Shown in pieces: positions 1,973 through 39,558 of a stretch of 64,000 bases of DNA. Positions within the stretch are counted from its first letter, which is position 1; each line of letters starts with the position of its first letter. The DNA lies in NCBI GenBank assembly GCA_028280195.1, contig JANQMH010000034.1, forward strand, positions 1 to 64,000, written 5' to 3'. The translations under genes and the position numbers were made by a program. The stretch is from Exilibacterium sp. (GTDB taxonomy: Bacteria > Pseudomonadota > Gammaproteobacteria > Pseudomonadales > Cellvibrionaceae). The notes under the pieces are model-generated. The model had not been told where the DNA came from, searched no databases, and saw nothing but the letters and a program-made list of their open reading frames with translations.

Positions 1973-3091
1973 ATGAATCCCACCCCGCTGCAACGCTACC
2001 AGCGCGACCTGCAACGCCAGGGGTTTTGCCGCGATGAGTCCCAGGCCGCCGCGGTACAGGCCTTGCAGCAGCTCTATGAGCTGCTGGTGGCGGACAGCCG
2101 GCGGCGCCGGTCCGCCTCACTGTGGGCGCAACTGCTGGCCAAAATGGCAATCGGGACTAGCCGCGAGCCGGTTCAGGGCCTGTATTTATGGGGCGGGGTG
2201 GGGCGCGGCAAGACTTATTTGATGGACAATTTTTACGAAAGCCTGCCGTTCAGAGAAAAGATGCGCGTGCATTTTCACCGCTTCATGCGCCGTATACACA
2301 GCGAATTGCGCCGTCTCGACGGCGAGAAAAACCCGCTGCGCAAAGTCGCCGAGCGCCTCGCCGGTGAAACCCAGGTACTGTGTTTCGACGAGTTCTTCGT
2401 CGCCGATATCACCGATGCCATGATTCTCGCCAATCTGCTCGAAGCCCTGTTTCAGCGCGGTGTCTGCCTGGTGGCCACCTCCAATATCGAGCCCGCCGGT
2501 CTCTACCGCGACGGCCTGCAGCGCGAGCGCTTCCTGCCCGCCATTGCACTGCTCAATCGGCATACCCGGGTGATCAATCTGGACGGCGGCATCGACTACC
2601 GCCTGCGCGCCCTGCAGCAGGCCGAACTCTACCATTCGCCGCTGGATGCCGCCGCCGATGCCAGTCTGCTGCGCAGCCTGGAAAGCCTGGTGCCGGATAA
2701 AAAGGAAATTCGCGCCAATGTGATGCTGGAGGTGGAAAACCGCGAACTCTGCGCCCGTTTCGAGGCCGAGGATGTGGTCTGGTTCGAATTTGCCGAGATC
2801 TGCGACGGTCCGCGCTCGCAGAACGACTATATCGCCCTGGCCAGGGAATACCATGCCGTGCTGGTATCGAATGTGCCGCGCATGGGCCGCGACAGCGAGG
2901 ACCAGGCGCGCCGCTTCATCAATATGGTCGACGAGTTCTACGACCGCAACGTCAAACTGGTGATTTCCGCCGCCGAGCCGCTGCAGCGCCTGTATGCCGG
3001 CGGCAAACTGAACTTCGAATTTGAGCGCACCACCAGCCGCCTGCTGGAAATGCAGAGCCACGAATACTTGGCGAGGCCCCATAGGCCGTAA
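1973..3091 (+). CDS. zapE: Cell division ATPase ZapE (AFG1/YhcM family)
   Basis: AAA-type P-loop ATPase of 372 aa. In E. coli, ZapE interacts with FtsZ and supports constriction under stress. The Walker A motif is GGVGRGKT with the family hallmark YLMDNFY just after it; Walker B is LCFDEFFVADI; the AFG1 segments HFHRFM and ATSN are present. An in-frame ATG exists at 1955, but the ATG at 1973 is preceded by CGGAG at a usual distance and gives the family's normal length. It precedes rplM-rpsI, the common gammaproteobacterial order. Confidence 0.95.
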   Translation: MNPTPLQRYQRDLQRQGFCRDESQAAAVQALQQLYELLVADSRRRRSASLWAQLLAKMAIGTSREPVQGLYLWGGVGRGKTYLMDNFYESLPFREKMRVHFHRFMRRIHSELRRLDGEKNPLRKVAERLAGETQVLCFDEFFVADITDAMILANLLEALFQRGVCLVATSNIEPAGLYRDGLQRERFLPAIALLNRHTRVINLDGGIDYRLRALQQAELYHSPLDAAADASLLRSLESLVPDKKEIRANVMLEVENRELCARFEAEDVVWFEFAEICDGPRSQNDYIALAREYHAVLVSNVPRMGRDSEDQARRFINMVDEFYDRNVKLVISAAEPLQRLYAGGKLNFEFERTTSRLLEMQSHEYLARPHRP

Positions 3092-3095
3092 ATCA

Positions 3096-3263
3096 GTTGC
3101 TAGTTACTAGTCTCTAGTTGCCAGTGTTTAGTTTTTTAAAAAGGGGGCGGTGACAAATGAAAATTATTTGTATTAGCATTTGTCGCCAACCCCATCTTTC
3201 CATTGCTAGTTACTAGTCTCTAGAAAACTAAACACTAGCGACTAGTAACTAGCAACTAGAGAC
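3096..3263. repeat. Heptamer-period compound hairpin, GTNNCTA type (copy 1)
   Basis: The left arm is six consecutive 7-mers, including GTTGCTA (3096), GTTACTA (3103), GTCTCTA (3110) and GTGTTTA (3124). The right arm is the reverse complement of the same words: TAAACAC (3229), TAGCGAC (3236), TAGTAAC (3243), TAGCAAC (3250) and TAGAGAC (3257). A direct copy of GTTACTA-GTCTCTA also lies at 3209-3222. Nested inside, about 3147-3193, is a second hairpin pairing GACAAATG with CATTTGTC. The element fills the zapE-rplM gap and ends 10 bp before the rplM -35 box. Confidence 0.85.
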
Positions 3264-3272
3264 TGACAATCC

Positions 3273-8536: not shown

Positions 8537-9154
8537 ATGGCGATTTTGCAACATACTCTGGGTATCCTCCTTCACCCCGACAGCGAGTGGAAGGCCATTC
8601 GCAACGAGCGTCACTCTTTCTGGCAGGTGTTTGTCAGCCATGTGCCCATCCTGGCGCTGATTCCCTGCGTGTCCTTCTTCTATGGCGTCACCCAGGTGGG
8701 CTGGAGCATCGGTGGCGGCGACCCGGTCAAGTTGACCATGGAGAGCGCGCTGTCCCTCTGCGTGCTGACTTACATAGCCATGCTGGTAGGCGTCTATGTA
8801 CTGGGCGAGTTCATCAACTGGATGGCCAAGACCTATGGCGTCAGTGACGACGATGAGACCCGTCACTACGAGGGTACGGCGCTGGCTGTATACATCACCG
8901 TTCCGGTCTTTCTGGTCGGTATTTTCGGCGTTTATCCGGAAATGTGGCTCAACGCCCTGGTCACCATACTGGCGGGCTGCTATTCCGTCTACCTGGTCTA
9001 CGAAGGCATTCCGATCCTGATGAACATCTCCAAGGAGCGCGCCTTCATGTATGCCAGCTCGGTGGTCACCGTAGGTCTGGTACTGCTGGTGGTGGTACGG
9101 GTCGGCTCGGTCATTCTCTGGGGCATGGGATTCGGCCCGGTTTATGTCGACTAG
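8537..9154 (+). CDS. Yip1-family inner-membrane protein
   Basis: Protein of 205 aa with about five hydrophobic segments and the family opening, in which an HPDSEWKAIRNER-type motif precedes the first membrane helix. YIP1-domain proteins of this kind are widespread in gammaproteobacteria but have no firm function. AAGGAG sits 7 nt before the ATG. It appears to be a single gene: 171 bp separate it from sspB, and a heptamer hairpin lies downstream. Confidence 0.8.
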   Translation: MAILQHTLGILLHPDSEWKAIRNERHSFWQVFVSHVPILALIPCVSFFYGVTQVGWSIGGGDPVKLTMESALSLCVLTYIAMLVGVYVLGEFINWMAKTYGVSDDDETRHYEGTALAVYITVPVFLVGIFGVYPEMWLNALVTILAGCYSVYLVYEGIPILMNISKERAFMYASSVVTVGLVLLVVVRVGSVILWGMGFGPVYVD

Positions 9155-9167
9155 CTTCACTAGTCCC

Positions 9168-9218
9168 CAGTCTCTAATAACTAGTCACTAGCGACTAGTA
9201 ACTAGTTATTAGAGACTG
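9168..9218. repeat. Heptamer-period hairpin, GTNNCTA type (copy 2)
   Basis: A near-perfect palindrome with 24-bp arms (CAGTCTCTAATAAC at the left, its complement at the right), one mismatch and a 3-nt CGA loop. Read in 7-mers it is TAATAAC, TAGTCAC, TAGCGAC, TAGTAAC, TAGTTAT and TAGAGAC, the same words as the element at 3096-3263. No T-tract follows. It lies between the Yip1-like gene and alkB. Confidence 0.85.
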
Positions 9219-17856: not shown

Positions 17857-19035
17857 ATGACTGACGCAATTGTAATTGTAGGTATTGCCCGCACCGCGAT
17901 GGGCGGTATGCAGGGGGATCTGAGTGCCGTGAATGCGCCGCAGCTGGGCGCCGCCGCCATCAAAGGCGCACTGGAAAATGCCGGTGTCGAGTCCAGAGAC
18001 GTGGACGAGGTCTTAATGGGCTGCGTACTGCCTGCCGCCACCGGCCAGGCGCCGGCGCGCCAGGCTGCTCTGGGGGCCGGTCTGCCCTCCGGCGTGCCCT
18101 GTACCACTGTCAATAAAGTCTGCGGTTCCGGTATGAAAACCGTGATGATGGCCCGCGAAACCCTGCTGCTCGGCAACGCCGATATCGTGGTTGCCGGCGG
18201 TATGGAGAGTATGAGCAATGCGCCCTATATGCTGCCGAAGGCCAGGGCCGGCTACCGCCTCGGCCATGGCGAAGTTCTCGATCATATGTTTACCGACGGC
18301 CTGCAGGATGCTTATGAAGGTAATCTGATGGGCAGTTTTGCCGAGGCGACCGCGCAAAAATACCAGTTTAGCCGCGAGTCGCAGGACGACTACGCTATCG
18401 AGTCACTGGCGCGGGCCAATGCCGCGATCGAAGCCGGCAAGTTCAAGCGCGAGATTGCGCCGGTGGTGGTCAAAACCCGCAAGGGCGAGATAACGGTGGA
18501 AACCGATGAGCAGCCCGGCAATGCGCGACCGGAGAAAATTCCCCAGTTAAAGCCGGCCTTTGCCAAAGACGGCACCGTCACCGCGGCCAATTCCAGCTCG
18601 ATCTCCGATGGCGCCGCGGCGCTGGTAATGATGCGCGAGTCCGAGGCGCAGAAGTGCGGCCTCAAGCCGCTGGCGGTTATCCGCGGCCAGGCCCAGCACG
18701 CCCACGAGCCGCAGTGGTTTACCACGGCGCCGGTCGGCGCCATGCAGAAGCTGCTGCAACAGGTCAGCTGGACGGTCAACGATGTCGACCTGTTCGAAAT
18801 CAATGAAGCCTTTGCCACCGTGACCATGGCGGCCATGAAGGATCTGGATATTCCCCACGACAAGGTCAACGTGCACGGCGGCGCCTGTGCGCTGGGCCAT
18901 CCCCTGGGTGCCTCCGGTGCGCGTATCCTGGTGACCCTGCTGGCGGCGCTGGAGACCTACGATAAAAAGACCGGTATTGCCAGTCTGTGTATCGGCGGCG
19001 GCGAAGCTACGGCGGTGGCTATCGAAAGGCTTTGA
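17857..19035 (+). CDS. Acetyl-CoA C-acyltransferase (thiolase)
   Basis: Thiolase of 392 aa catalysing reversible Claisen condensation or thiolysis of acyl-CoA (beta-oxidation or acetoacetyl-CoA metabolism). The nucleophilic Cys89 is in NKVCGSGMK, the conserved NEAF motif is present, His is in GGACALGHPLGASGAR, and the second Cys is in SLCIGGGEATAVAIE. The C-terminal box reads GGGEATA rather than the usual GGGMGTA-like form. Start at 17857 is favoured by TGGAG upstream and by the MTDAIVIVGIARTAMG N-terminus; the frame opens 24 nt earlier. Sequence alone does not separate biosynthetic from degradative thiolases. Confidence 0.94.
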   Translation: MTDAIVIVGIARTAMGGMQGDLSAVNAPQLGAAAIKGALENAGVESRDVDEVLMGCVLPAATGQAPARQAALGAGLPSGVPCTTVNKVCGSGMKTVMMARETLLLGNADIVVAGGMESMSNAPYMLPKARAGYRLGHGEVLDHMFTDGLQDAYEGNLMGSFAEATAQKYQFSRESQDDYAIESLARANAAIEAGKFKREIAPVVVKTRKGEITVETDEQPGNARPEKIPQLKPAFAKDGTVTAANSSSISDGAAALVMMRESEAQKCGLKPLAVIRGQAQHAHEPQWFTTAPVGAMQKLLQQVSWTVNDVDLFEINEAFATVTMAAMKDLDIPHDKVNVHGGACALGHPLGASGARILVTLLAALETYDKKTGIASLCIGGGEATAVAIERL

Positions 19036-19073
19036 TGTAGTTGCTGGTCGCTAGTGTCAACAGGCCCTAGTGG
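19036..19073. repeat. Decayed heptamer-period repeat, GTNNCTA type (copy 3)
   Basis: GTTGCTG, GTCGCTA and GTGTCAA run in 7-bp register from about 19040, followed by TAGTGGT and TAGTTGA nearer 19066. The words match those at 3096-3263 and 9168-9218, but pairing is poor. It lies between the convergent thiolase and dolP genes. Confidence 0.55.
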
Positions 19074-19648
19074 TTAGTTGATGTATTCGATTGCTTTTAC
19101 TACTTTTTGGACGCCGCCGGTGGAGCGCGCTACCTCCGCCGCGCGGTCGGCCTCCGCTTGTGATAGCAGCCCCATTAGAAATACGGTGCCGTTTTCGGTA
19201 ACCACCTTGACGCGGCTGGCGTTGACGTCGCGGTGTGTCATCAGCTTGGTCTTGACCTTTGTCGTCAGCCAGCTGTCGTTGGTACGCGCCAGCAGCGAGA
19301 GTCTTCCCTGTACCTGCAGTTCGTTGTATACCTGTCTGACTTTGGGCACTTTCGCCACCGTGTCGCTGGCCAGCTGGCGCAGCTCGGGCGATGACACCTG
19401 GCCGGTCAGCAGCACCACACCGTTGTAGCTGGTGACGTTGATGTGGGCCCTTTCCAGCGAGGCGTGCGCCTTTTTGATATTCACCGCAGCGATGGTTTCC
19501 AGCCGCTGGTCATCGATGTAGGTACCGAAAGTGCGCTTGCCCGGGTTGGGTTTGATCGGCCCGTCCGAGGTGGCATTGATCACTGAAACGCAGCCGCCGG
19601 CGATCAGGCAGGTGGTGACTATTCCCAGCGTAAAAAGCGTTTTCAACA

Positions 19649-39447: not shown

Positions 39448-39456
39448 GGGGAGCTT

Positions 39457-39526
39457 ACAGCCGACAGTTTACAGCTCACAGCGATGCATCACTGCGATCA
39501 ACTGTCAGCTGTAAACTGTAAGCTGT
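39457..39526. repeat. Heptamer-period inverted repeat, ACAGNNN type (copy 2)
   Basis: Left side in 7-mers: ACAGCCG (39457), ACAGTTT (39464), ACAGCTC (39471), ACAGCGA (39478). Right side: CAACTGT, CAGCTGT, AAACTGT, AAGCTGT, ending at 39505, 39512, 39519 and 39526. The two sides are reverse complements (for example ACAGTTTACAGCT with AGCTGTAAACTGT). It interrupts the tightly packed dcw cluster between murC and ddlB; no T-tract follows. Confidence 0.85.
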
Positions 39527-39558
39527 CAATTTATTAAAATGGGTTTGGATTGACATAA

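Follow-up and report, generated by a model that had tools for sequence, protein, structure and literature searches.

Dispersed fold-back elements built from 7-bp words at gene 3' ends in an Exilibacterium genome

At least three unrelated lexicons of 7-bp words coexist in the genome of Exilibacterium sp.; the three described here follow the same fold-back plan and are placed mostly at stop codons. Our preferred reading, which we hold to be probable but by no means certain, is that these elements are REP/REPIN-like, i.e., dispersed stop-proximal palindromes, with arms that are made of 7-bp words and remodelled in 7-bp steps. The window referred to below is the whole stretch of DNA analysed, positions 1 to 64,000 of contig JANQMH010000034.1.

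Results

The unit of the first family is CTAG followed by a 3-nt spacer, and about seven such words recur. Within mixed-word arrays CTAG itself stands at 342 of 451 sites and the remainder are mostly single transitions of it (CTAA, CCAG, CTGG and TTAG), a conservation of the frame that is partly by construction since the array detector tolerates one mismatch only; seven strand-collapsed spacers (TCA, TAA, CAA, CGA, AGA, CCA and AAA) make up 416 of the 451. The initial annotation had described GTNNCTA on one side and TAGNNAC on the other, and its 7-bp step stands, but the units are better written as CTAG with 3-nt spacers, the two orientations differing only as to which base of the spacer is fixed. 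The words it listed (GTTACTA, GTCTCTA, GTCGCTA and GTTGCTA) are among the main words genome-wide, where their order changes and both orientations are present. Most arrays mix words and so lack the near-identical units of a heptameric simple-sequence repeat (SSR); the pure minority consists of runs of a single word (TGA, TTG or TCT) that reach 13 or more CTAG units, several of them at contig ends. A TrpR-like CTAG operator was considered and dropped, the spacing of CTAG being 8 bp in the TrpR operator and 7 bp here.

Doubly bounded elements run from CAGT to ACTG and measure 23, 30, 37, 44 or 51 bp, with the exception of two long arrays. Outside ACTG, which itself served as a selection criterion in the end-information profile, only the next base is clearly biased (A, 57 of 96) and information then falls to about zero, which indicates that the elements have real edges. 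The commonest right-hand end is NNACTGA, and the right-end pattern CTAGNNACTAGNNACTG has 79 matches in the genome against none for the control. With their mixed words, and with ends of the form CAGT...ACTG(A) on both sides in place of a GTAG or CGTC tag at one end, the elements are, as first suggested, neither simple microsatellites nor tagged REPs.

Forward words precede reverse words in 85 cases against 17 (P ~2e-12), and with forward words on the left and reverse words on the right each element therefore folds back, as had been claimed. Mean MFE is -18.5, with z < -2 against base shuffles in 54 of 70 elements, and elements in their real word order are more stably folded than random orderings of the same words (t = -5) because word types face inward. 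Compensatory change between the arms, which had been put forward as a check on the hairpins, left no signal within this genome in two tests: swapping right halves between elements left the mean energy unchanged (-17.49 against -17.27+-0.38), and symmetric, exactly complementary word pairs between arms numbered 16 against 13.8+-2.4 after shuffling.

The window contains six matches to CTAGNNNCTAGNNNCTAG, a pattern of CTAG triples at a 7-bp step, where dinucleotide shuffles gave 0.00, and the three elements originally reported had been located correctly to within a few bases. Element 1 (3094-3265) lies between a zapE-like gene and rplM, starting 3 nt past the zapE-like stop codon (which ends at 3091); it is bounded by CAGT...ACTG and has a predicted RNA fold of -78 kcal/mol. 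It had been taken for one heptad hairpin, and the heptads are there, but it is a composite rather than a single unit, in which two inverted heptad arms flank other repeats. The left arm, of 42 bp (3094-3135, forward strand), reads CAGTTG CTAGTTA CTAGTCT CTAGTTG CCAGTGT TTAGTTTT, and the reverse complement of the 42-bp right arm (3224-3265, reverse strand) is CAGTCTCTAGTTGCTAGTTACTAGTCGCTAGTGTTTAGTTTT; the two arms have words in common in a shifted order. A near copy of the right arm, without the rest of the element, is found on contig C109 (L219:6428-6470). Between the arms lie a third, short heptad run (3202-3223, forward strand; ATTG CTAGTTA CTAGTCT CTAG) and an inner palindrome (3140-3199, GGTGACAAATG...CATTTGTCGCC), a distinct dispersed repeat. 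Sequences similar to this palindrome (GGGGTCGGTGACAAATG...CATTTGTCACCGACCCC) occur in the same genome at C106:17105, C78:138, C87:70048, C13:1555 and C48:126620, and on C106, as in element 1, the palindrome is flanked by heptad-bearing sequence. In the congener the zapE-rplM gap (L241 9144-9280) contains ~27-bp direct repeats (AGTCCTCAACGGGGTTGGG...) and no heptads; repeats tend to occupy this 3' gap in both species.

Element 2 (9168-9218) is a single hairpin of 51 bp, CAGT...ACTG, with an RNA fold of -32.7 kcal/mol; it begins 13 nt past the stop of an ORF ending at 9154, and it has its first five words in common with an element on contig C1 (L019:9476-9535). The third element, a decayed hairpin (19036-19078), directly follows the TGA (19033-19035) of a thiolase-like gene.

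The initial annotation had proposed looking for the repeat genome-wide, and a scan of the 6.07-Mb genome returned 483 matches to CTAGTNNCTAGTNNCTAG (234+249) against none for the reversed control. At least three CTAG units in register occur at about 90 loci per genome (95% CI 29-211), as scaled from 5 loci in a 336 kb sample chosen independently of the pattern; the 89 distinct arrays analysed are a sample from genome stretches located mostly via the pattern itself. Other than in this genome, the CTAGTNN pattern was found in only three of the 37 relatives searched, with 2-6 matches each, and it is absent genome-wide from the congener (G001). Arrays of CTAG+3 occur across many phyla, mostly as pure tandems, and mixed-word and composite forms are present in other gammaproteobacteria. 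Some gammaproteobacterial loci have heptad arms around larger nested palindromes (L255 3760-4120 and 17130-17620; L249 4130-4480), the composite elements of genome G371 have a different heptad frame (CTAGG..), and Subsaximicrobium wynnwilliamsii (Bacteroidetes) carries several CTAG-heptad arrays in less than 4 kb (L061 352-3558), several of which are followed by a common tail, gtcttgattctttgtacttaata.

The remaining two lexicons had escaped the initial annotation, which included neither the ACAG/CTGT family nor the array at 1-32. The former is seen in a fold-back at 39453-39528, starting about 10 nt past a stop codon, in which a left arm of ACAG+3 nt and a right arm of CTGT+3 nt enclose a 20-nt loop, and in a further fold-back (ACAGTTTACAGCTTACGG...CTGTGAGCTGTAAACTGTCAACTGT) at 1872-1939 within a divergent gap; the word string ACAGTTTACAGCTCACAG is common to both. 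The latter, with which the contig begins (1-32, forward strand), is a pure array of (CCTTTTC)n and belongs to a GGGAAAA/TTTTCCC family that forms pairs of inverted arms, some four heptads long, near gene 3' ends, with sites at L036 4904-5035, L211 10825-10905 and L204 623-715 as well as in the window. The inner sequence of the GGGAAAA-armed elements differs at every locus read, and in this combination of inverted arms and variable inner sequence the family resembles REPINs. Two inverted arms around a variable spacer are likewise found in the ACAG family and in the CTAG composites, and the arms of simple CTAG elements are adjacent. Long pure GGGAAAA/TTTTCCC arrays lie at some contig ends, where they may break the assembly.

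In 1.0 Mb of own sequence, a sample biased towards elements, lag-7 autocorrelation marks 72 stretches, against 0-19 at all lags except 14 and 21, and the congener has two lag-7 stretches in 467 kb; in the 336 kb pattern-independent sample CTAG triples occur at lag 7 only, among the lags tested. Tandem units of 7 bp are thus over-represented against other periods, as among heptameric SSRs. The three families together occupy 15 loci in the unbiased sample, which corresponds to about 270 per genome (151-446).

Different loci have 31 strings of four words in common (counting strings with at least three distinct words), against 6.0+-2.7 in shuffles that preserved word type, and 11 strings of five words against 0.7+-1.0; in neither case did any of 1000 shuffles reach the observed number. 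The sharing of word strings by unlinked loci implies that copies spread or convert one another. Growth had originally been ascribed to slippage plus inversion, and slippage in 7-bp steps is retained because single words show pure tandem expansions, but the two alone are insufficient as a full cause because four- and five-word strings are common to unlinked loci far above chance. Two composites on the unlinked contigs C82 and C139 have a common 79-bp core at 95% identity, although their heptad words differ; a search with this core for a full-length transposon found two core copies only and no gene. At the orthologous congener site the C139 composite is absent, 39 bp separating the flanking alignments against 158 bp here, which makes the site shorter rather than cleanly empty, and the flanks of the C82 composite are not adjacent in the congener. 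Descent or conversion links the copies, whose words turn over faster than the frame or the core; ectopic conversion without insertion could be an alternative source of the common word strings. Two congener sites orthologous to elements of this genome are occupied by different heptad-like sequences, one of (TTAGCTG)n and a weaker one of CCAG/CTGG; some arrays may therefore be old ones whose sequence has been rewritten in situ.

Gene calls came from a simple ORF picker based on codon usage rather than from a curated annotation, and on this basis 70 elements were placed, 33 in ++, 19 in --, 16 in convergent and two in divergent gaps; the corresponding counts for all gaps above 60 bp in these stretches are 123 ++, 98 --, 37 convergent and 83 divergent. 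Divergent gaps are avoided (2/70 elements against 83/341 gaps, P = 7e-6), and in codirectional gaps of at least 80 bp 16 of 27 elements are at -24..+4 nt relative to the upstream stop. The elements are therefore, like REPs, intergenic repeats in many copies that occupy 3' ends and avoid divergent gaps. Thirty-three stop codons are contained in arrays, and their offsets are those predicted for three frames (18, 5 and 9, plus one other). Any three units contain stops in all six frames, because 7 = 1 mod 3 and CTAG is palindromic, and an insertion over the last codons would therefore still end the protein cleanly.

A single Y1/RAYT-like gene was found (L034 1465-2184; G000:C45:44540-45259). It matches NF047646 (REP-tyrosine-transposase-like) at 49.5 bits, below the cut-off of 80, and its HUH motif is replaced by MVQ in this genome and in the congener alike; the congener orthologue is 81% identical and has been kept though that genome is without CTAGTNN triples. 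No heptads lie within the 3.3-kb locus of the gene. A RAYT as the current driver was rejected on these combined grounds (one Y1 gene, HUH lost, no nearby heptads, an orthologue in a CTAGTNN-free congener), and the gene is possibly a domesticated REP transposase. No target-site duplication was found among 24 doubly bounded elements, which thus have the inverted ends of a MITE without its duplication, and no Rfam family matches the elements above the gathering score, RNase P being the only match in the window.

Discussion

In proposing a mechanism for these elements, our contention is that a mobile or conversion process would copy them, or pieces of them, between gene 3' ends, and that slippage with unequal exchange would add, drop and swap whole heptads. 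Exchange in whole heptads would allow the 7-bp frame to survive while the order of words is shuffled. Insertion at 3' ends would be tolerated as the repeat supplies stops in every frame, and the transcribed hairpin, if it has any action, is probably a weak 3' barrier or terminator.

The pure one-word arrays, the existence of further heptad families in the same genome and the over-representation of heptamers among SSRs in many bacteria (as cited in PMC4692102 and PMC4679880) would all be natural if each array were simply born and grown in place by polymerase slippage, any likeness between loci reflecting convergence on favoured words. We think this unlikely, given that unlinked loci have both word strings and CAGT/ACTG ends in common, that one composite core has been copied at two loci, and that the CTAG lexicon, abundant in this genome, does not occur in 467 kb of congener sequence. 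Nor does it seem likely that the arrays are kept for function, as terminators, 3' exonuclease barriers or tuners of upstream translation, roles that have been proposed for REPs. The strong folding and the advantage of the real word order speak for function, as does the position at stop codons and away from divergent gaps; however, the same positions are expected from selection against insertions elsewhere, and the arms do not covary once position is controlled. More doubtful still is an activity working in 7-bp steps (polymerase, template-switching or copying) that would generate heptad arms around the 3' ends of genes whatever the sequence, a suggestion that goes with the presence of three unrelated lexicons in one species, almost none in the sampled congener, and lineage-specific lexicons elsewhere.

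Heptad-armed composites around a core, both here and in the gammaproteobacterial loci L255 and L249, might suggest that the arms are the terminal inverted repeats of a miniature transposon with its transposase elsewhere or lost. This we regard as very unlikely; there is no target-site duplication, most elements are arms without a core, no full-length element was found, and the inner sequences of GGGAAAA-armed elements differ from locus to locus. The initial annotation had also raised a protein that reads a 7-bp step, and a fixed CTAG frame with variable spacers is what dispersed binding sites for such a protein might look like, yet this explanation is highly improbable: two other families keep the step without CTAG, the fixity of the frame is in part made by the detector, and there is no candidate protein.

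REP/REPIN-like palindromes remodelled in 7-bp steps, as we prefer to see these elements, have analogues on two sides. The STRR heptanucleotides of the cyanobacteria Calothrix and Nostoc, with which a kinship of type had aptly been suggested, have the 7-bp step and the intergenic site in common with them, but are pure tandem words where the elements here are bounded mixed-word palindromes. A report on Calothrix heptanucleotides is cited in PMC4692102. In our search of the full-text literature on CTAG heptamers, heptamers with stop codons and STRR, only PMC4679880 and PMC4692102 were closely relevant. The G-rich heptameric repeats of Xanthomonas and Nostoc (PMC4692102) are alike in their 7-bp units, their many loci, their preference for, or overlap with, stop codons and their scarcity between divergent genes, and they vary in length and sequence at the same sites between related genomes; they are direct repeats of G-quadruplex-type words, however, whereas the CTAG elements have mixed words and inverted arms, and their closer analogue here is the GGGAAAA family. 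The TAACTGA repeats of Beggiatoaceae, cyanobacteria and Bacteroidetes (PMC4679880) are also dispersed intergenic heptads, and recall the NNACTGA end, but consist of one fixed word, directly repeated and mostly just upstream of start codons, in contrast to the mixed, inverted words at stop codons described here. On the other side, GTAG/CGTC-tagged REPs (PMC3733652) are likewise abundant intergenic palindromes that lie within 20 bp of 3' ends, avoid divergent gaps and often provide a TAG as stop; they differ in having a tag beside a short stem, where these elements have no tag and 7-bp words that vary in number and order. Compared with REPINs and their RAYTs (PMC3116915), no cognate RAYT that is catalytically intact, i.e., with its HUH motif, was found in this genome. 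The CTAG-heptad elements thus stand between heptameric intergenic repeats and REP/REPIN palindromes, with the placement of REPs but without their tag or an intact RAYT.

That repeats can supply stop codons is already known: MacGregor noted that TAACTGA repeats in forward orientation carry stops in all three frames, with an overlap of up to 18 nt at gene ends (PMC4679880), and the TAG of GTAG-REPs is reported to act as a stop codon (PMC3733652). The six-frame form follows from the sequence of the CTAG units themselves; it may explain why gene 3' ends are the tolerated site, and gives a simple account of how such repeats can settle there. The elements make the boundary between microsatellites and mobile palindromes of the REP type less sharp. 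In our view, the most interesting part, and one absent from the initial annotation, is that several heptad lexicons share one architecture. The over-representation of heptamers in bacteria has been on record since 2007 (work cited in PMC4692102 and PMC4679880), with no agreed cause, and with three lexicons here beside nearly heptad-free sampled sequence in a congener, the cause of this excess becomes testable.
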